Source: Planctomycetales bacterium (GTDB taxonomy: Bacteria > Planctomycetota > Planctomycetia > Pirellulales > S012-138). Taken from it: a stretch of 32,365 nucleotides of DNA. The notes under the pieces were generated by a model. The model was not told the origin of the DNA, ran no database searches, and saw nothing but the letters and a program-made list of their open reading frames with translations. The position numbers and the translations under genes are program-made. Location: positions 1 to 32,365 of the forward strand of contig WFOE01000043.1 of assembly GCA_015488215.1 (NCBI GenBank), read 5' to 3'. Every line of letters starts with the position of its first letter. Positions within the stretch are counted from its first letter, which is position 1. This document shows, in pieces, positions 14,763-24,109 of the stretch.

Positions 14763-15272
14763 TTGGCATTGTCCCGCCGCCAGTTTCAGCAACTGGTCGA
14801 AGACCACGGGCCGGCTTTGTACCGTCTGGCCTACCGGCTGGTAGGCGATGCGCACGAGGCCGAAGACGTGGTGCAAGAGACGTTTCGGGCGGTGTGGCGT
14901 TGCCGGGCACGGTTCGACGCTTCGCGCAGCCAGCGGGCGTGGTTGGTGGCGATCCTGCGCCGGCGTGTGGCCGACCACTGGCGTGCTCGGGCTCGCCGGG
15001 ACTGGGTTACCGGAATCGATTTGCCTGAAGAGCCCGTCTGGTCCCCGGAACCCGGCAGCCAGCAGTTTAGGGACGAAATCCAGCACGCGCTGGAGCAACT
15101 TCCCGAACAGCTTCGGGAAACCCTGCTGCTGGTGGTCGTCGGCGAACTGACCCACCAGCAGGCCGCCCAGGTGTTGGGCGTGCCGCTGGGCACGGTGCTT
15201 TCGCGCGTGGCCCGAGCCAGAACCCGGCTGCGAAAGCTGCTCCAGGACAAACGGGATTCCCTGATTTCCTGA
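14763..15272 (+). CDS. ECF-type RNA polymerase sigma factor
   Basis: A 169-residue sigma factor. Region 2 is residues about 10-75 (LVEDHGPALYRLAYRLVGDA, then EDVVQETFRAVW and RAWLVAILRRRVADHW); region 4 is about 110-160 (ALEQLPEQLRETLLLVVV, ELTHQQAAQVLGVPLGTVLS). The start is an unusual TTG, chosen because AAAGGAG lies 7 nt before it and the family's N-terminus fits. No zinc-finger anti-sigma gene is adjacent; instead the next gene, 26 nt on, is a YfbK/vWA-like membrane protein. What it regulates is unknown, though self-regulation is suggested by the GGAAAC element upstream. Confidence 0.92.
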   Translation: MALSRRQFQQLVEDHGPALYRLAYRLVGDAHEAEDVVQETFRAVWRCRARFDASRSQRAWLVAILRRRVADHWRARARRDWVTGIDLPEEPVWSPEPGSQQFRDEIQHALEQLPEQLRETLLLVVVGELTHQQAAQVLGVPLGTVLSRVARARTRLRKLLQDKRDSLIS

Positions 15273-15298: not shown

Positions 15299-17446
15299 GT
15301 GCCGCGTAGCGATGCCCTCAAACCCCAGGGCAGAAACGCGGCTCCGCAACCAGGGGGTGGCTCCGTGTTTGGGTTCCGCGCAATCGGCAAAGTTCTGCTC
15401 TGCCGGACCGGCAAAGTCCTGCTCCGATTGTTTGGCCGCGCGGGGGGAGGAGGCGGCGGTGAACAGCCCGGCGGCCCATCCGAATCGGCCGGAACCGGTT
15501 TGAGCGACGGTCCCAGTCCACGAGCCGCCGCTGTACCGCCGGAGGAAGCGCAGCAGGCGGGAGACGCTCGTAGCAACCAGCAGCCGAGGGCGGACTCGCT
15601 CGGCTCTCTGGAAGAACAGCTCCGGCAGGTCCCTGCCCCGGAGTCGGTGGCCCGAACCGGAAACTGGCAACACTGGGCCAGTTCGCTGGCCGAGCGGATC
15701 GTGGAGGAGGAAACGCCTCCGCTGCCCTGTGGTTCCCCCGGGCACTTGCTGCGTCTTTGGGTTCCCCGGCCCATGCTCTATGCCGCAACCGGGGCGCTTT
15801 TGCTCTTGCTGGGTTGGGGCACTTGGCTGCTTTGGCCCCCGGGAGGCTCAGCCCCCGGACCGCAGAATCCGGTGACCGAAGAACTCCGCCCCCAACCAAC
15901 AGGGGGGAATGCAAACGGCCGTGGCGTTTTGGCTGGTCGAAAGACGGACCGGTCCCGGGCCGAGACGCCCCGTTGGGAAACACGACAGATAGCCCTGCCG
16001 CCGCAGCAGCCGAGGGTGCCGTGGGCCGTGGTGGTAACGGGCCTTGGTCGCGAAGAAGCCTCCGCGCAGGCTGGTCCGGCTCGAACCACTTGGCCCTTGA
16101 GTCCCAGACAGGACGCTATCGTGCGGCTGCGTCCCTGGACCAGCACCCGCGCCTGGTGGCAGGCGAAACGGCATTGGCCGCCTGGGGAACAAACGGCCCC
16201 GCTGGATTTTTTGACCGCCACGATTGCTCGTCCCGCGGCTGGATTAGGCTCCGCAGCAGTCCCATGGGAAACCGCTCCGTGGCATAATCGTCCCCGATTG
16301 TGGGCCGAGGTGGCTCCCGACCCGCTCGATCCGCAAACCCGCTGGCTGCTGGTGTTGGTGCAGGCACCGGCTCCCGCACCGCAGGACGATCGGGCGCAAG
16401 ACCTGATCGTGGTCGTGGCTCCTTCCGACCAGTTTCGGAACAGCTACGGCTTTTTCGCCCTGGGCGAAGAGTTGACTCACCTGGCCTCGCGGCTCCGGCC
16501 GGCCGATCGGCTGTTGGTGCTGGGCAACGGAGGGCGTCTGCACTTTCGGCTCCAGGGCCGGCCGGATCGCGATGCCTTGGAACGCACGTGGCAGCGCGTG
16601 CAAAGCCAGACTCCAGCCCAGTTGCGGCAATCGCTCCAGCAGGCCGCAAGTGTGGCGCACCGCTGGACTCGTGCCGACGTGGAAGCTCGGCGCCACTGCA
16701 ATCTGCTGGTGGTAACAGACCTGCCGTGGTGGACCGCGACGGCGCCCGAGGCCCTGAGGTGGGCTCGTCACTGGGGGCAAGCGATTCGCCGCGTGCGAAG
16801 CGTGGCACTCCTGCGTCCCGAGGGAGAGGTTGTTCCGGGTGACGGATGGCCGCTGGTGGCCGGGGTGTGGCGGATGCGACACCACCGCTGGCAAGACGCG
16901 GAACAGCTCCGGCACGTGTTCTGGGAAGCAAGCGGCGGGGGGTTCGGTCGGCCGGTACGGATGCGTCTGCAAGTGGGCTGGTGCGGCCAGCAGGTTCGCT
17001 GGTTCCGTTTGCCTTCGGTTTCTAAACAGCCGGGGGGGACCCGTCAGCTCTCGGCCATAGCCGACTTAACCGGCACAATTGCCCCGGGTGGTCTGGTTGC
17101 GGCGATGCTTCAGTTTGCTCCCCGACAAGGTGGCCCAGGACCTTTGTTGGCGAATCCCCGGTCGCAGACGCTTGTCGGCTGGCTGGAAGTGCATTGGCAA
17201 ACGGAGTCCCAGGGGTGGAGACGTCTACGCCAGCCAGTCGGCGTGCCCCGCAGCGGGACACGGCAAGACGGCTCGCCGTTGTTTCGGGCGGCCTGGTTGA
17301 GCGTTTATGCAGCCGGGGGCGTTCGTCATCCGCAAAAGCTCCGCAGGTGGCCGGCTCTCTGGAAAGGGTGGTTCCCCGGACCGGATGCTCCTCCGCGCTT
17401 GCGCGAACTGGTACCGTTGGTTGAAAGACGCACCGGCTTCAACTAA
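15299..17446 (+). CDS. degenerate YfbK/vWA-like membrane protein, sigma-factor partner
   Basis: A 715-residue protein from a GTG start 26 nt after the sigma gene. The N-terminal 158 residues would be cytoplasmic and low in complexity (Gly/Pro/Ala/Gln), then one membrane helix (about 159-180, MLYAATGALLLLLGWGTWLL). The rest follows YfbK-type proteins: an N-domain (about 260-355, ending RLWAEVAPDPLDPQTRWLL), a vWA-like domain (about 366-515) and a C-domain (about 540-600). The vWA metal site DxSxS is replaced by VVVAPSDQF, so metal binding is probably lost. Its place beside an ECF factor without anti-sigma suggests it may hold or regulate the sigma factor through the cytoplasmic part. The exact start is uncertain: a 63-codon frame from ATG 15312 overlaps its beginning. 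Confidence 0.72.
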   Translation: MPRSDALKPQGRNAAPQPGGGSVFGFRAIGKVLLCRTGKVLLRLFGRAGGGGGGEQPGGPSESAGTGLSDGPSPRAAAVPPEEAQQAGDARSNQQPRADSLGSLEEQLRQVPAPESVARTGNWQHWASSLAERIVEEETPPLPCGSPGHLLRLWVPRPMLYAATGALLLLLGWGTWLLWPPGGSAPGPQNPVTEELRPQPTGGNANGRGVLAGRKTDRSRAETPRWETRQIALPPQQPRVPWAVVVTGLGREEASAQAGPARTTWPLSPRQDAIVRLRPWTSTRAWWQAKRHWPPGEQTAPLDFLTATIARPAAGLGSAAVPWETAPWHNRPRLWAEVAPDPLDPQTRWLLVLVQAPAPAPQDDRAQDLIVVVAPSDQFRNSYGFFALGEELTHLASRLRPADRLLVLGNGGRLHFRLQGRPDRDALERTWQRVQSQTPAQLRQSLQQAASVAHRWTRADVEARRHCNLLVVTDLPWWTATAPEALRWARHWGQAIRRVRSVALLRPEGEVVPGDGWPLVAGVWRMRHHRWQDAEQLRHVFWEASGGGFGRPVRMRLQVGWCGQQVRWFRLPSVSKQPGGTRQLSAIADLTGTIAPGGLVAAMLQFAPRQGGPGPLLANPRSQTLVGWLEVHWQTESQGWRRLRQPVGVPRSGTRQDGSPLFRAAWLSVYAAGGVRHPQKLRRWPALWKGWFPGPDAPPRLRELVPLVERRTGFN

Positions 17447-17759: not shown

Positions 17760-20700
17760 ATGAAACGGATTCTGCTTTCGGCCATTGTGTTGGTCGCATG
17801 GGTCGCTTTTGGGTTCGGCCCGCTACCGGCTCCCGCACAAGAGCCCGTTTCGGAGTTCCTCCAGGCCTTGCGAACCAAGGGCTACTACGACGCGGCCGAG
17901 TGGTATTTGAGCAGCCTGCAAGACAAACCCTACGTGCCGGCCGAAGTCAAGCAGACGATCCCCTACGAACTGGGGCTAACCGCGCTCAGCGCAGCCGGTC
18001 AGGTCCGCAACCTGAAGCAGCGGATGGAGATTCTGGACCGGGCAGCCGACTACTTCCGAAGGTTCATCAAACAGGCCCCGCAGCATCCCTTGGCTCCGGA
18101 CGCCAAATTGCAGTTGGGCAACGTCGAAGTAAGCCGGGCCGAAGGCGTGCTGTTCCAGGCTGAACGTACCGACGACCCGGAAGAAAAGAAAAAGCTGACC
18201 CAGCAAGGGCAGAAACTCTACGAAGGGGCGCTGGAGATTTTCAAAACAGCGGCCGCCGAGTTTGAAAAAATCTATCGGAAATATCCCAAAGCCAGCTCCG
18301 ATCCCAAAGTCAAGGAAGCCCGCCGCAAAGCATACTCGGACTGGGCCAAGAGCCGCCTGCTTTGGGGGCAGACCGAGTTCCAGTTCGCTTTGCACTTCGA
18401 TGAAAAGAATCCTCGCCGCAAGCAACTGCTGGAACAGGCCCAGCAGCGGTTCAACAAACTCTACATCCACAACCGGACTCGGCTTCTGGGACAGATGGCC
18501 CGGCTGTTCGAAGGCCGCTGCTACCAGGAGATGGGACGCCTGCGCGAAGCCCTGGGCGCTTACAAGGATGTGATCGAAGTAACCGAAGTGGCCGCCGAGG
18601 AACCGGCGTTCCGCAACCTGATGAACAAGGCCATTGCCTTGCAATTGGAAGCCTGGAACGATCCCAAACAGGCTAAGTACGAAGCGGTCGTCGAGACGGG
18701 AATCAAATGGCTGGAAAACGCGCTGGGCGAAGAAGACCGGTCCCAGGAAGGGCTGATTATCGCCTACCAGACGGCCAAGGCGGCTGATGCGCTAATCAAA
18801 AAATGGGGAAAAGACCCCAAGCGGAAAAACGACACCGCCAAGCTCCGCCGCGAGCTAGTCAAGCGCCTGCGGCCAGTGGTGCGCATCCCAAATCCCCACC
18901 GCGAGGCCGCACGCACCTTGCTGGCCAAGTACGAAAAGCTGAGCGATAAGCCAATCGACTTCGCTGACGCCCGGGATCGGGCCACCGTGCTGCTCGAAAC
19001 CGCCCAGGAAAAACAGGCCGAACTGGACGAGGAACTGGCCAAAGGAGCCCAGGCCGACAAGAACAAAGTGGAACAGCTCCGTCAGGAGGTGCGCGCCCAG
19101 TGGGAAAACGCCATCAAGATGCTCCGCACGGCGCTGGATATGCAAGATGAAAGCACCACGCTGGAAGACCTTCATACCCTCCGCACTCAGATGGCATTAG
19201 CCCACTTCCGCCTGGGCCACTACTACGATGCGGCCATACTGGGCGAATACCAGGCCCGCTTCTACCCCACCGCGCCCGGTTCGTTGGATTGCGCCAAAAT
19301 CGCCCTGCGTAGCTACCTGGATGCTTACAACCAAGAAGGGGTCGATGCCCGGCCGTTCCATGCCCGAAAACTGATGGGCGTGGCCGAACTGCTGGCTCGC
19401 AACTGGCCCAACGATCCCACCAGCGACTTCGCCTGGATCGTCCTGGGTAAACTGGCCGCGCGGGAAGGGGATATCGAGCAGGCTGTCCAGTATTACGACC
19501 GCGTGCGTTCTGATTCCCCGCAACGCCCGTTGGCCGATCTGGAGTCCGGGGCACTGCTCTGGCGTCAATACCTGGAGCAGCTCCAGGCCAAGAAAACCCC
19601 TTCGGCCCAGTTGAAGCAACTGGTCCGCCAGGCCCAGGAGCGGATGGAACGAGGGATTACCAAGCTGAAGGACCAGCCGCTTTCTTACAGTCGCCTTAGC
19701 GGAATGCTTTCCCTGGCCCAGCTCTACTTGCAGCAGGGCCGGGCGGCCGATGCGCTGAAGTTGCTCCAGGCGCCCCAGGGTCCCTTGGCCGTGGCCGCCA
19801 ACGGGGATCCGGTCATTCGGGACAAGCTGAAGTTCGTTGAGGAAACCTACAAGGCGGCGTTGCGAGCCTACGTGGGCGTCCGGCAAATGGACAAGGCCAA
19901 AGAGATGATGGCCAAATTGCGGCAATTGGTGCAGCAAGAAGGCGGAGCCGACGCCGAACGCTCCCAGCGGTTGATGGCCATTTATGCCTCGTTGGGTAGA
20001 GACCTGGAGCGCCAGATCGCGGCATTGAAACAGGATTCCTCCAAGCAACAGGAACTCAAAACGCTGATCGAAGGGTTTGAATCTATCTTGGGCGAAATCG
20101 CCGCCAACCCACAAGCCAGCCCCGGCATGCTTAACTGGGTGGCCGAGACGTTTCTGAGCATGGGTAAGGGGCTTAGCGGTTCTCAGACTGCCTCGGCCGA
20201 CGCGGCCCGCTACTACGCCCAGGCCGCCGCCGCCTACGAGCGTCTGATCAAGCTCATGGAAACCGAAAAACCGGAAGCAGTTCCCGCGCTTCAGGTGCGG
20301 CTGGCCCACTGCCTGCGGCAGCAAGGCAAGTTCAAGGACGCAATCAATCTGCTGATCAAAGTTCTGGCCAAAAAACCCAGCGCCCTGGATGGCCAGAAGG
20401 AAGCGGCCTACACGTTCCAGGAATGGGGACGAAAGGCGAAATCGGACCGCTACTACCGCTACGCCATGGCCGGTCGCTTCAGCAAAAAGACGCGCAAGCG
20501 GCTTGTCTGGGGCTGGGCCTACATGTCCCGCATCCTGCAACGCAACGAAAAACTCCGTAGCGATTTCCACGAAGCCCGCTACAACCTGGCCTTGTGCCAT
20601 TACGAGGTGGCCCTGTTGCAACAGGATCCGGCCAAGAAGAACGACTACCTGAAGCGAGCCAAGCAGGACATCGCCATTACCTACCGCTTGTTTCCCGAAA

Positions 20701-22085
20701 TGGGCGGCCCGGACTGGCAACCCCGCTACGATCGGTTGCTGAAACGCATCCAGCGCGAACTGGGGGAACCAACCGAAGGACTGCTGGCTTTGAAACCCCC
20801 GGAGAAACCCCAGCAACCAGAACGAACTTCGTCTTCGGACTCCGGCACCGCGGTGGCTGCCAACACCCCTTCGCCGCCGCAGTCGGGCTCGGGAAGCGGC
20901 GGTTCTTCACAATCCTCGTCCACACCAGCAGATCCAGGAGGAACCAACATGCTGATTTGGCTTGTGATTCTCGCCGTTGGTTTTGGTGCAGCTATCGGCG
21001 TCCCGATTTTCATGTACAAAAAACAACGCCGACGCCGTAAAGCCGTCTTGGTCCCCTTGCTGCTTCTGGCTCTGCATCTCCCCGGCCAGGCAATGGCCGA
21101 TACGATCCGTCTCAAGGACGGCAAGGAAATCATCGGCACCATCCCTCAAGGAGGCATCACCCGGACCGAGCTCAAAATCCAGCGGGCCGGCAAGACGGAA
21201 ACCGTCCCGGTCAACCAGATCGAATGGATCAGCCTGGACCGAGAACCCCCCGCGTTGCGGACCATTCGCCGTCAGGTAACCAACGGGAATTACGATCTGG
21301 CATTGAAGAACTTCGCCCAGTACCGCGACCTGGACCCCAACAATGTGCAAGACCTGGTGGTCAAGCAAGAGGTGGAGTTTTACAAGGCGATGGCTCTGGC
21401 CAGAAAGGCCCTGCGCGACGGAAACCAGAACGAGCTGAAAACGGCCGGCAAGGCGTTGACCACGTTTCTGAAAAACAACCAGGGTTCGTGGCACTATTTT
21501 CAGGCCAACGAGCTGATCGGGCAGTTGCTCATGGCCTTGAACATGCCCGACCAGGCCGTCAAATACTACGCTCGCCTGGAAGAGGCTCCTTGGCCCGACG
21601 TGAAGCTGCGGGGCATGGTCCTGCAAGGGCAAGCACTGCTGAGCCAGAAAAAGCCGGCCGAAGCGTTGCAAGTGTTCCAGCAGGTGATCGCCCAGGCGCA
21701 AGGCAAGCCGGAGCTGAAAGACCTGTTGCTCAGCGCGACGGTTGGCCGGGCCGAAGCGCTGGCCGCCCAGGGCAAGTTCGAGCAGGCAGTGCCCATTCTG
21801 GAAGGAATTGTGGCCAAAGCCTCTCCCACAGACTACGAGCTGCGAGCCCGGTTGTACAACGCCCTGGGACGCTGCTACCTGAATGCGAACAAGCCGCGCG
21901 AAGCTCTGTTGGCTTTCTTGCGCGTGGACCTGCTGTATAACCGCAGTTCCCAACAGCACGCCGAAGCGCTGTATCACCTGACCCAACTGTGGCGCAAGCT
22001 CGGCCGTCCGGAACGGGCCGACGAAGCGCATGCCCGGCTGATGACCCGCTACAAGAACAGCCCCTGGGCCAAAGCGGCTCCGTAG
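17760..22085 (+). CDS. double TPR membrane protein of an ExbB/ExbD operon
   Basis: A 1441-residue protein. ATG 17760 gives a clear signal peptide (MKRILLSAIVLVAWVAFGF...APAQ) and GAGG lies upstream; an earlier frame start is rejected. Residues about 30-1010 are helical TPR-type repeats in the periplasm. A Ser/Pro/Gly linker (about 1025-1060) leads to one membrane helix (1064-1086), a basic turn (KKQRRRRK) and a second hydrophobic helix (about 1096-1113) that also looks like a signal peptide. A second part follows: a small beta segment (DTIRLKDGKEIIGTI) and more TPRs to the end. Related planctomycete loci usually have two TPR genes here, so this looks like a fusion. An in-frame ATG at 20949 with perfect AGGAGG could also make the C-terminal part separately. 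It leads the ExbB/ExbD genes. Confidence 0.85.
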   Translation: MKRILLSAIVLVAWVAFGFGPLPAPAQEPVSEFLQALRTKGYYDAAEWYLSSLQDKPYVPAEVKQTIPYELGLTALSAAGQVRNLKQRMEILDRAADYFRRFIKQAPQHPLAPDAKLQLGNVEVSRAEGVLFQAERTDDPEEKKKLTQQGQKLYEGALEIFKTAAAEFEKIYRKYPKASSDPKVKEARRKAYSDWAKSRLLWGQTEFQFALHFDEKNPRRKQLLEQAQQRFNKLYIHNRTRLLGQMARLFEGRCYQEMGRLREALGAYKDVIEVTEVAAEEPAFRNLMNKAIALQLEAWNDPKQAKYEAVVETGIKWLENALGEEDRSQEGLIIAYQTAKAADALIKKWGKDPKRKNDTAKLRRELVKRLRPVVRIPNPHREAARTLLAKYEKLSDKPIDFADARDRATVLLETAQEKQAELDEELAKGAQADKNKVEQLRQEVRAQWENAIKMLRTALDMQDESTTLEDLHTLRTQMALAHFRLGHYYDAAILGEYQARFYPTAPGSLDCAKIALRSYLDAYNQEGVDARPFHARKLMGVAELLARNWPNDPTSDFAWIVLGKLAAREGDIEQAVQYYDRVRSDSPQRPLADLESGALLWRQYLEQLQAKKTPSAQLKQLVRQAQERMERGITKLKDQPLSYSRLSGMLSLAQLYLQQGRAADALKLLQAPQGPLAVAANGDPVIRDKLKFVEETYKAALRAYVGVRQMDKAKEMMAKLRQLVQQEGGADAERSQRLMAIYASLGRDLERQIAALKQDSSKQQELKTLIEGFESILGEIAANPQASPGMLNWVAETFLSMGKGLSGSQTASADAARYYAQAAAAYERLIKLMETEKPEAVPALQVRLAHCLRQQGKFKDAINLLIKVLAKKPSALDGQKEAAYTFQEWGRKAKSDRYYRYAMAGRFSKKTRKRLVWGWAYMSRILQRNEKLRSDFHEARYNLALCHYEVALLQQDPAKKNDYLKRAKQDIAITYRLFPEMGGPDWQPRYDRLLKRIQRELGEPTEGLLALKPPEKPQQPERTSSSDSGTAVAANTPSPPQSGSGSGGSSQSSSTPADPGGTNMLIWLVILAVGFGAAIGVPIFMYKKQRRRRKAVLVPLLLLALHLPGQAMADTIRLKDGKEIIGTIPQGGITRTELKIQRAGKTETVPVNQIEWISLDREPPALRTIRRQVTNGNYDLALKNFAQYRDLDPNNVQDLVVKQEVEFYKAMALARKALRDGNQNELKTAGKALTTFLKNNQGSWHYFQANELIGQLLMALNMPDQAVKYYARLEEAPWPDVKLRGMVLQGQALLSQKKPAEALQVFQQVIAQAQGKPELKDLLLSATVGRAEALAAQGKFEQAVPILEGIVAKASPTDYELRARLYNALGRCYLNANKPREALLAFLRVDLLYNRSSQQHAEALYHLTQLWRKLGRPERADEAHARLMTRYKNSPWAKAAP
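20936..20951 (+). promoter_or_regulatory. internal Shine-Dalgarno and start inside the TPR gene
   Basis: AGGAGG (20936-20941) is followed 7 nt later by ATG (20949-20951) in the same frame as the long gene. Starting here would give a 378-residue product, residues 1064-1441: two hydrophobic helices then the second TPR domain. The same bases encode Asp-Pro-Gly-Gly-Thr-Asn of the long protein, so chance is possible. Confidence 0.5.
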
Positions 22086-22200: not shown

Positions 22201-23073
22201 ATGCGTGGTGTAACCCCCTGGTTGGTAATCGGATGTCTGGTCGGTGCCATGGTGGTCGCCTGGGCTGCCATGCCGCTTTCTTCGGCGGCGCTTTCCGTCG
22301 CTGCGGCCCAAGAGGAAGAGTTCGAAGAAGACGGCGGCGCGGCGCAGAACCAAGGGGGAGGTCAGGCCGCCGGAGAACAACAGGGTGATCAGGCCCCCGC
22401 TGGAGCACAGGCCGGAGGAGAAGAAGAACCGAAAAAACAAAGCCAGCTTCAGTGGGTGCTGGGCGCCTTGGGGTGGTTCTTCTCCCTCGTCTTCCTGGCC
22501 CTCAGCTTCACCCTAGTGGCCTTGATTGTGATGAACCTGCTGACCACCCGGCGGGACAACATCGTCCCCCTGGACCTGGTCCAGGCGTTCGAGGAGTTCC
22601 TCAACGCCAAGAAGTACAAGGAAGCTTACGAACTGGCCCGCGAGGACGAATCCCTGCTGGGCCAGGTGCTTTCGGCCGGGTTGAGCAAGCTGCAGGCCGG
22701 CTACAACAAGGCCATCGAGGCGATGCAGGAAGTGGGCGAACAGGAAAACATGAAGCTCGAACACCGCCTGAGCTACATGGCCCTCATCGGGACCATCAGC
22801 CCCATGGTCGGGCTGTTCGGTACGGTTTGGGGGATGATTTCCTCGTTCAACGTAATCGCCACCGCCGGCGGGCAGCCCAAACCGGCCGAACTGGCCGGCG
22901 GTATCTCCACCGCGTTGCTGACCACGTTGATTGGTCTGGCCATCGCCATTCCGGCCATTGCCGCCTACAACATCCTCCGCAACCGTCTGGCCCGCCTGGT
23001 GCTGGAAGCCGGCATCATCAGCGAAAACCTGATGAGCCGCTTCGAGCCGATGGCCGGCGCCCGCAAGGCATAG
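22201..23073 (+). CDS. exbB: ExbB/TolQ/MotA-family proton channel
   Basis: A 290-residue inner-membrane channel subunit. ATG 22201 has AAGGAG upstream; an earlier in-frame start at 22111 is rejected. It has an extra signal-like helix (about 8-35) and a Glu/Gln/Gly-rich linker (about 37-80) before the core. The core has three membrane helices: about 83-110 (LGWFFSLVFLALSFTLVALI), then ISPMVGLFGTVWGMI and ALLTTLIGLAIAIPAIAAY, both typical of ExbB/TolQ. ExbB pentamers with ExbD use the proton gradient to do work across the periplasm. It lies 115 nt after the double TPR gene and 58 nt before the first exbD. Confidence 0.93.
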   Translation: MRGVTPWLVIGCLVGAMVVAWAAMPLSSAALSVAAAQEEEFEEDGGAAQNQGGGQAAGEQQGDQAPAGAQAGGEEEPKKQSQLQWVLGALGWFFSLVFLALSFTLVALIVMNLLTTRRDNIVPLDLVQAFEEFLNAKKYKEAYELAREDESLLGQVLSAGLSKLQAGYNKAIEAMQEVGEQENMKLEHRLSYMALIGTISPMVGLFGTVWGMISSFNVIATAGGQPKPAELAGGISTALLTTLIGLAIAIPAIAAYNILRNRLARLVLEAGIISENLMSRFEPMAGARKA

Positions 23074-23131: not shown

Positions 23132-23587
23132 ATGAGGTACAAAAAGGCCGACAACGAGCTGCTGGAAGCCGATCTGACTCCGATGATCGACATGACCTTC
23201 CAGCTCATCGCCTTTTTCATGCTGATTATCAACTTCACCGAAGCGGAGCAGGATCAGCGGATCCAGCTTCCCAAGAGTGAATTGGCCCGTCCCCCCGAAC
23301 AGCCCTTCGAGGTGGCCTTGACCATCCAGTTGATGAAGGACTCGAAGACCGACCAGGAGCTGATCATCTACGGGGGCGAGGTCATGCCGCTGGCCAACCT
23401 GCAACGCGTGCTGGCCCGGGAACGCGAATACCTGACCCGGACCAAACGCAGTCCCGCGGACGCCACGATTATCATCCGCGCCGACGGCAGGGCCAAAACC
23501 GGCGTGGTCCAACAAATCATCGAAACGTGCCAAGAGGTGGGATTCGAGCAGTTCGCCCTGCGCGCCCAACAGGAAGAAGCCGGCTGA
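23132..23587 (+). CDS. exbD: ExbD/TolR-family protein, first copy
   Basis: A 151-residue protein with a short cytoplasmic start, one membrane helix (about 18-38) and a periplasmic domain. LTPMIDMTFQLIAFFML holds the conserved Asp in the helix (ExbD Asp25 equivalent), which carries protons with ExbB. The periplasmic part has the usual strand-helix pattern, with ATIIIRADGRAKTGVVQQII. ATG 23132 has GTGAGG upstream at a slightly long distance. It lies between exbB and the second exbD in a tight operon. Confidence 0.93.
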   Translation: MRYKKADNELLEADLTPMIDMTFQLIAFFMLIINFTEAEQDQRIQLPKSELARPPEQPFEVALTIQLMKDSKTDQELIIYGGEVMPLANLQRVLAREREYLTRTKRSPADATIIIRADGRAKTGVVQQIIETCQEVGFEQFALRAQQEEAG

Positions 23588-23608: not shown

Positions 23609-24109
23609 ATGAAAATACGCCATCGTGACAGCGACAGCGGAAAAATCCAACTGGAAATGACGCCGATGATTGACATCGTTTTCCAGTTGCTGGTGTTTTT
23701 CATCATGACGTTCAAAGTGGTGGCCGTCGAAGGGGATTTCAACATCAAGATGCCCCGGATGTCGGCCGGAGGGGCCCCTTCGGATCAACTGATTCCTCCC
23801 CTGCGGGTGCGGCTGACCACGCCGCAAGACCCCAACGCCCCGGTCTGCGGCATCTATTTCGGCCAGCGGCAGCTCGCCTCGTTCGAGGACCTGCGCAACG
23901 AAGTAGCGGCCACCGTCGGCGGTGGAGGCCCCAACGCCGACGCCGACGAATACGAAGTGGAACTGGATTGCGACTTCGACCTGCCCTACCGCTTTGTCAT
24001 CGACGCCATCACGGCCGTCTCCGGCTACCGCGACCCCAGCTCCGGTCAGATTGTGCCGCTGGTACGCAAGATCAAGTTCGCCCCGCCTCGCCAGGCAAGC
24101 GGCGGTTAG
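23609..24109 (+). CDS. exbD: ExbD/TolR-family protein, second copy
   Basis: A 166-residue paralogue 21 nt after the first exbD. The membrane segment LEMTPMIDIVFQLLVFFIM has the same conserved Asp. The periplasmic domain differs: an acidic loop with Gly/Asn/Asp (GGGGPNADADEYEVELDCD) and a Gly-rich end. Two unlike ExbDs suggest a heteromeric complex with one ExbB. GGAGG lies 11 nt upstream of ATG 23609. No TonB gene follows. Confidence 0.93.
   Translation: MKIRHRDSDSGKIQLEMTPMIDIVFQLLVFFIMTFKVVAVEGDFNIKMPRMSAGGAPSDQLIPPLRVRLTTPQDPNAPVCGIYFGQRQLASFEDLRNEVAATVGGGGPNADADEYEVELDCDFDLPYRFVIDAITAVSGYRDPSSGQIVPLVRKIKFAPPRQASGG

Follow-up and report, generated by a model that had tools for sequence, protein, structure and literature searches.

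The DNA analysed here (the window) is a 32,365-nt stretch from a Planctomycetales bacterium (GenBank assembly GCA_015488215.1, contig WFOE01000043.1), and it carries a single open frame of 1441 codons (17760..22085, + strand; ATG 17760, MKRILLSAIV..., stop 22083-22085) that unites two exported tetratricopeptide repeat (TPR) proteins encoded singly in the relatives examined. This fusion, also present in a second species of the genus (G002; locus L031, JALSGI010000051.1), is a genuine, genus-specific event by which two adjacent genes of an operon became a single frame. Based on the composition of its junction, we consider it probable that the fused gene encodes a polyprotein, of which the first TPR part would be membrane-anchored and the second would probably be freed by signal peptidase I. 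The original prediction for this stretch had described the joined frame, two parts each resembling a complete exported TPR protein, and a junction built from a membrane helix, the basic turn KKQRRRRK and a second helix shaped like a signal peptide; all of these elements were recovered upon reanalysis, and the examined relatives indeed encode the two parts as two genes.

The frame begins behind a Shine-Dalgarno (SD)-like sequence, GAGGAAAAAACC (+ strand, before ATG 17760), and opens with a first signal peptide, MKRILLSAIVLVAWVAFGFGPLPAPAQ (17760..17840, cleavage point approximate), followed by the gene-1 part, a large protein with TPR matches in Pfam (17841..20795). A linker rich in Ser, Gly, Pro and Gln (20796..20948) leads into the junction, which reads in order: linker, LIWLVILAVGFGAAIGVPIF, MY, KKQRRRRK, AVLVPLLLLALHLPGQAMA and D. 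LIWLVILAVGFGAAIGVPIF is an added membrane helix of 20 residues (20952..21011), presumably a stop-transfer anchor; the KKQRRRRK turn (21018..21041), predicted to be cytoplasmic, is identical in both fused species; and AVLVPLLLLALHLPGQAMA (21042..21098) forms the core of a second signal peptide with an AxA motif for signal peptidase I (AMA before D here, AGA before D in the second species). Across the 1441 residues, just three segments reached a 19-residue Kyte-Doolittle mean of >=1.3: the signal peptide at the N-terminus peaks at 2.30, the helix of the junction at 2.45 and the helix resembling a second signal peptide at 1.78, and the same three hydrophobic segments were found in the second species. 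In both species the last of these pairs a short core and a Pro-Gly break with the AxA motif, and it can be aligned to the signal peptides that open the separately encoded gene-2 proteins (motif and alignment judged by inspection). The mature gene-2 part (21099..22082) follows, predicted by AlphaFold2 to comprise a five-stranded beta domain (~21099-21233) and then TPR helices, the latter also recognised by Pfam.

The fused proteins of the two species share 79% identity at a synonymous divergence (dS) of ~1.0, and the second species keeps the junction helix, the basic turn and an AGGAGG placed 7 nt ahead of an ATG. Their junctions are open in both and have diverged, with a sole indel of one whole codon in the linker. 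An assembly or sequencing error that erased a stop codon could be entertained given that both genomes are draft assemblies and that the fusion was not seen outside the genus among the matches listed in our order and class surveys. A shared error is nonetheless very unlikely, because the second species, despite the divergence of its junction, retains an uninterrupted frame together with the helix and the basic turn; moreover, the indel preserves the frame and the helix is an added feature, more than a missing stop. We give this explanation almost no weight. Absence of the fusion from close relatives had been named beforehand as the sign of such an error, and the second species proved to be fused.

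A wider comparison of the locus, as the original prediction had proposed, returned separate genes in 44 relative loci (~39 genomes, some loci overlapping), where a stop codon closes gene 1 and gene 2 opens after it with a signal peptide of its own. Among these are the two genomes of the same family in which the locus is intact (G003 and G004). Gene 2 was present in 356 of the 397 genomes surveyed for the order and in 200 of the 249 surveyed for the class, and among the matches listed (~150 places per survey) uninterrupted frames of fused length occurred just in this genome and in that of the second species. Two further candidates were rejected: a 1443-residue frame returned for G004 by one search, where a further search and direct reading gave 373 residues and a stop between the genes, and a 1400-residue frame in G062, where a TGA separates them. 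No plasmid relatives of the locus were found. None of the 44 loci has a hydrophobic segment at the gene-1 C-terminus (maximal 19-residue mean 0.87, the two fused proteins reaching 2.45 and 2.53) or a counterpart of the linker at the gene-1 end, the linker being coding in the fused genus only. The membrane helix is restricted to the fused frames, and the fusion is conserved in two species.

A second signal peptide can function only in a chain that has come back to the cytoplasm, since the gene-1 product is itself exported. A strong helix followed by KKQRRRRK lies, as read from the sequence, at a position suited to that return, and such a helix with a basic cytoplasmic turn would meet the topological need. 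We infer topology, cleavage and motor association as follows. The large TPR part would be exported by the N-terminal signal peptide until the added helix halts transfer, with KKQRRRRK keeping the turn cytoplasmic; export would then resume at the retained signal peptide of gene 2, now carrying the second TPR part, such that the full chain crosses in two passes. Cleavage by signal peptidase I would most likely fall between AMA and D, releasing the second TPR part, and the first part would remain tethered to the inner membrane, next to the TolQ/TolR-like motor whose genes follow. This route, with the helix acting as a topology adaptor, was overlooked by the original prediction; it appears the likelier path to two products and needs no internal start.

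The ratio of nonsynonymous to synonymous substitution rates (dN/dS) between the two fused species was 0.20 in the helix, 0.07 in a 10-codon stretch with the basic turn, 0.57 in the linker and 0.52 in the signal-peptide core, which roughly suggests purifying selection on the helix and the turn and relaxed constraint on the linker and the core. No convincing match to a source gene for the linker and helix was obtained in this or related genomes, and the two genes were probably joined when a stop was lost and a former intergenic stretch, similarly long in relatives, came to be read in frame. Such a loss might have been neutral, with gene 1 reading into gene 2, a fused part without a role, and gene 2 made mainly from its own start. 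The fast evolution of the linker would agree with this, as would a junction about as long as the gene-1 tail plus intergenic stretch of relatives, but a strong 20-residue membrane helix and a conserved basic cluster would be unexpected from random read-through and both are constrained, and we regard neutral loss as improbable. The polyprotein reading has several points against it: topology and cleavage are read from sequence features and hydropathy, the dN/dS stretches are short (10-22 codons) and their values imprecise, and the fusion is known from two genomes of one genus, the contig of a third member (G001) ending within gene 1, before the junction. Furthermore, should the second helix escape cleavage, a single tethered protein would result instead of two. 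In that case the second helix would stay as an anchor and both TPR parts would hang from one inner-membrane hairpin, for which the pair of helices with its basic turn is a plausible architecture and by which the fusion would fix a 1:1 stoichiometry; this outcome seems unlikely to us given that the second helix has, in both species, the short core, Pro-Gly break and AxA motif before the mature start that are expected of a cleavable signal peptide.

Two products could also arise from two starts, as the original prediction had put forward: the full-length protein and additional gene-2 protein carrying a helix and signal peptide of its own, an arrangement compatible with the polyprotein. The candidate ribosome-binding site, a perfect AGGAGG (20936..20941, + strand), is indeed separated by 7 nt (AACCAAC) from an in-frame ATG (20949..20951), which would open a C-terminal form of 378 residues. 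In each species this ATG is the only in-frame start codon of the 1441-codon frame with AGGAGG, GGAGG, AGGAG or AAGGAG at 5-9 nt, and AGGAGG-7-ATG is kept in both although adjoining codons diverge. Synonymous-codon shuffles with the protein held fixed gave AGGAGG at the same spacing in 2.1% of cases for this genome and 2.4% for the second species (P ~0.02 each), the two values not being independent because the species are related. Genome-wide, AGGAGG-N5-9-ATG occurs 137 times against 65 in the reversed-pattern control, about a twofold excess, so that the motif alone would be real only about half of the time; by arithmetic from that control (65 sites, both strands, 4.29 Mb), the chance of an in-frame match within the 300-base junction is ~0.001, and of 30 genomic sites of the motif examined only the junction site is flanked in either direction by several hundred open codons. 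In most relatives gene 2 is preceded by its own SD-like site. The relatives' gene-2 starts, however, leave a shorter stretch before the mature protein, and their position is nearer to that of ATG 21012, which is without an SD. Special conservation of the SD-ATG stretch was rejected, since 15 of its 16 bases are identical between species and 11% of the gene's 16-nt stretches reach that level; likewise, the RNA opening energy at the internal start was unremarkable (31st and 43rd percentile), and an unusually open mRNA was found there in neither species.

Collectively, a start at ATG 20949 is plausible but unproven, and production of two proteins by two starts remains a tentative option that we place somewhat short of an even chance. 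Of the claim that two forms serve one ExbB/ExbD motor, the operon context stands, the fused gene lying in one operon with a TolQ/ExbB gene and two TolR/ExbD genes, and the separate 378-residue form is a candidate product, the conserved SD-ATG pair coming from two related sequences with modest statistical support and its site being no more open than the remainder of the mRNA. A combination is conceivable but doubtful, in which the second protein would be made in two ways, by signal peptidase cleavage and from the internal start, the gain of the helix solving the topology and anchored and free TPR proteins reaching one motor in unequal amounts. Frameshifting at AAAAAAC (21018) was considered as well and is unsupported, as the shifted frames close at inconsistent places between the species and share no early stop. 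Both fused species carry the same AAAAAAC run (21018-21024, codons AAA AAA C), AAG being the commoner lysine codon in the second.

Clusters of von Willebrand factor A (vWA), TPR, TolQ-like and two TolR-like genes have been described in the Planctomycetes-Verrucomicrobia-Chlamydiae (PVC) group and proposed to be motor-driven force transducers, the vWA gene often lying downstream (PMC12204202). The locus resembles them in that its TPR gene adjoins a TolQ-like gene and two TolR-like genes. In relatives a vWA gene lies upstream, as opposed to the frequent downstream position in the cited clusters (PMC12204202). It differs in that the two TPR genes are one frame and that a 715-residue protein without a Pfam-recognisable vWA domain takes the vWA place. 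The fused gene belongs to this already described but uncharacterised motor class, and the fusion itself is new within the class.

The periplasmic Tol-Pal component CpoB/YbgF is likewise an exported TPR protein, and its gene adjoins those of a TolQR-type motor. The match of the gene-2 part to YbgF was weak (3e-12), and the TIGR02795 equivalog cut-off of 90.1 bits was not reached by the 378-residue form (47.2) or by the whole frame (62.4); the gene-2 part further differs from CpoB/YbgF by an extra beta domain and by the fusion, and no TolB or Pal match was present among the scanned genes of the window. AlphaFold2 modelled the 378-residue form with a mean predicted local distance difference test (pLDDT) score of 91.7, the small beta domain preceding the TPR helices, and a fold search with the gene-2 part matched mostly generic TPR structures. 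The beta domain (21099-21233) also showed a weak match to the N-terminal domains of the Leptospira families NF047503 and NF047433.

Polyproteins processed by signal peptidase are common in viruses and, to our knowledge, rarely described in bacteria. FbcH, the cytochrome b/c1 precursor of Bradyrhizobium japonicum, is one frame encoding two subunits of a membrane complex, which signal peptidase separates at a signal sequence within the chain, and is the nearest bacterial precedent we know of; literature searches for bacterial signal-peptidase polyproteins returned nothing usable. Both cases present one bacterial frame with an internal signal sequence between two products, cleavage being a prediction in ours. 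The first protein of FbcH already ends inside as a membrane protein, whereas the first part here is a soluble exported protein, and for this reason a helix would have had to be added. As for the internal start, Cas11b of an archaeal CRISPR-Cas system is reported, on experimental evidence, to arise from an internal in-frame start (PMC11899642); the likeness is an in-frame start giving a C-terminal form, here indicated by a sequence signal.

The fusion of the two genes in one genus suggests that both products act in the same complex and that inner-membrane tethering of the larger product is tolerated or useful. In the examined unfused relatives, both exported proteins are kept as neighbours in a conserved, uncharacterised motor operon. 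The locus offers a clear case of how two exported proteins can be fused, one membrane helix and a basic turn having been gained before the old signal peptide.

The order gene 1, gene 2, TolQ, TolR, TolR is widely conserved among relatives. In the window, the fused gene is followed on the + strand by a MotA/TolQ/ExbB-family proton channel (22201..23073; PF01618, 4e-31; TIGR02796 tolQ, 1.3e-28, below cut-off), whose ATG 22201 was chosen by eye after AAAAGGAG, and by two ExbD/TolR-family proteins (23132..23587, PF02472, 5e-20; 23609..24109, PF02472, 3e-15). Upstream on the same strand, at the place of the relatives' vWA gene, lies the 715-residue protein (15299..17446), which has one membrane helix, no Pfam match and no visible DxSxS metal site. 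A clear vWA protein is encoded upstream of gene 1 in loci L032, L034 and L082, to which the 715-residue protein gave a weak hhalign match (E 6e-4, probability 29%); it may be distantly related to the vWA protein, perhaps as a decayed or repurposed vWA force transducer. The cluster is headed by an extracytoplasmic function (ECF)-type sigma factor (14763..15272, + strand; PF04542, 1e-20; PF08281, 4e-15), also found upstream in L034, L082, L090 and L097, and its position suggests dedicated regulation of the motor operon.

Elsewhere in the same genome (G000), at least two further TPR-ExbB loci were noted (C107:57409-58778 and C255:30257-34145; L038, L043, L052, L054), in which single TPR frames of ~1100 residues lie beside an ExbB gene, as paralogous motors. 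On the same contig as the fused gene, the - strand encodes a secretin with a type II/type III secretion system (T2SS/T3SS) pilus N-terminal domain (1356-2993; PF00263, PF13629).
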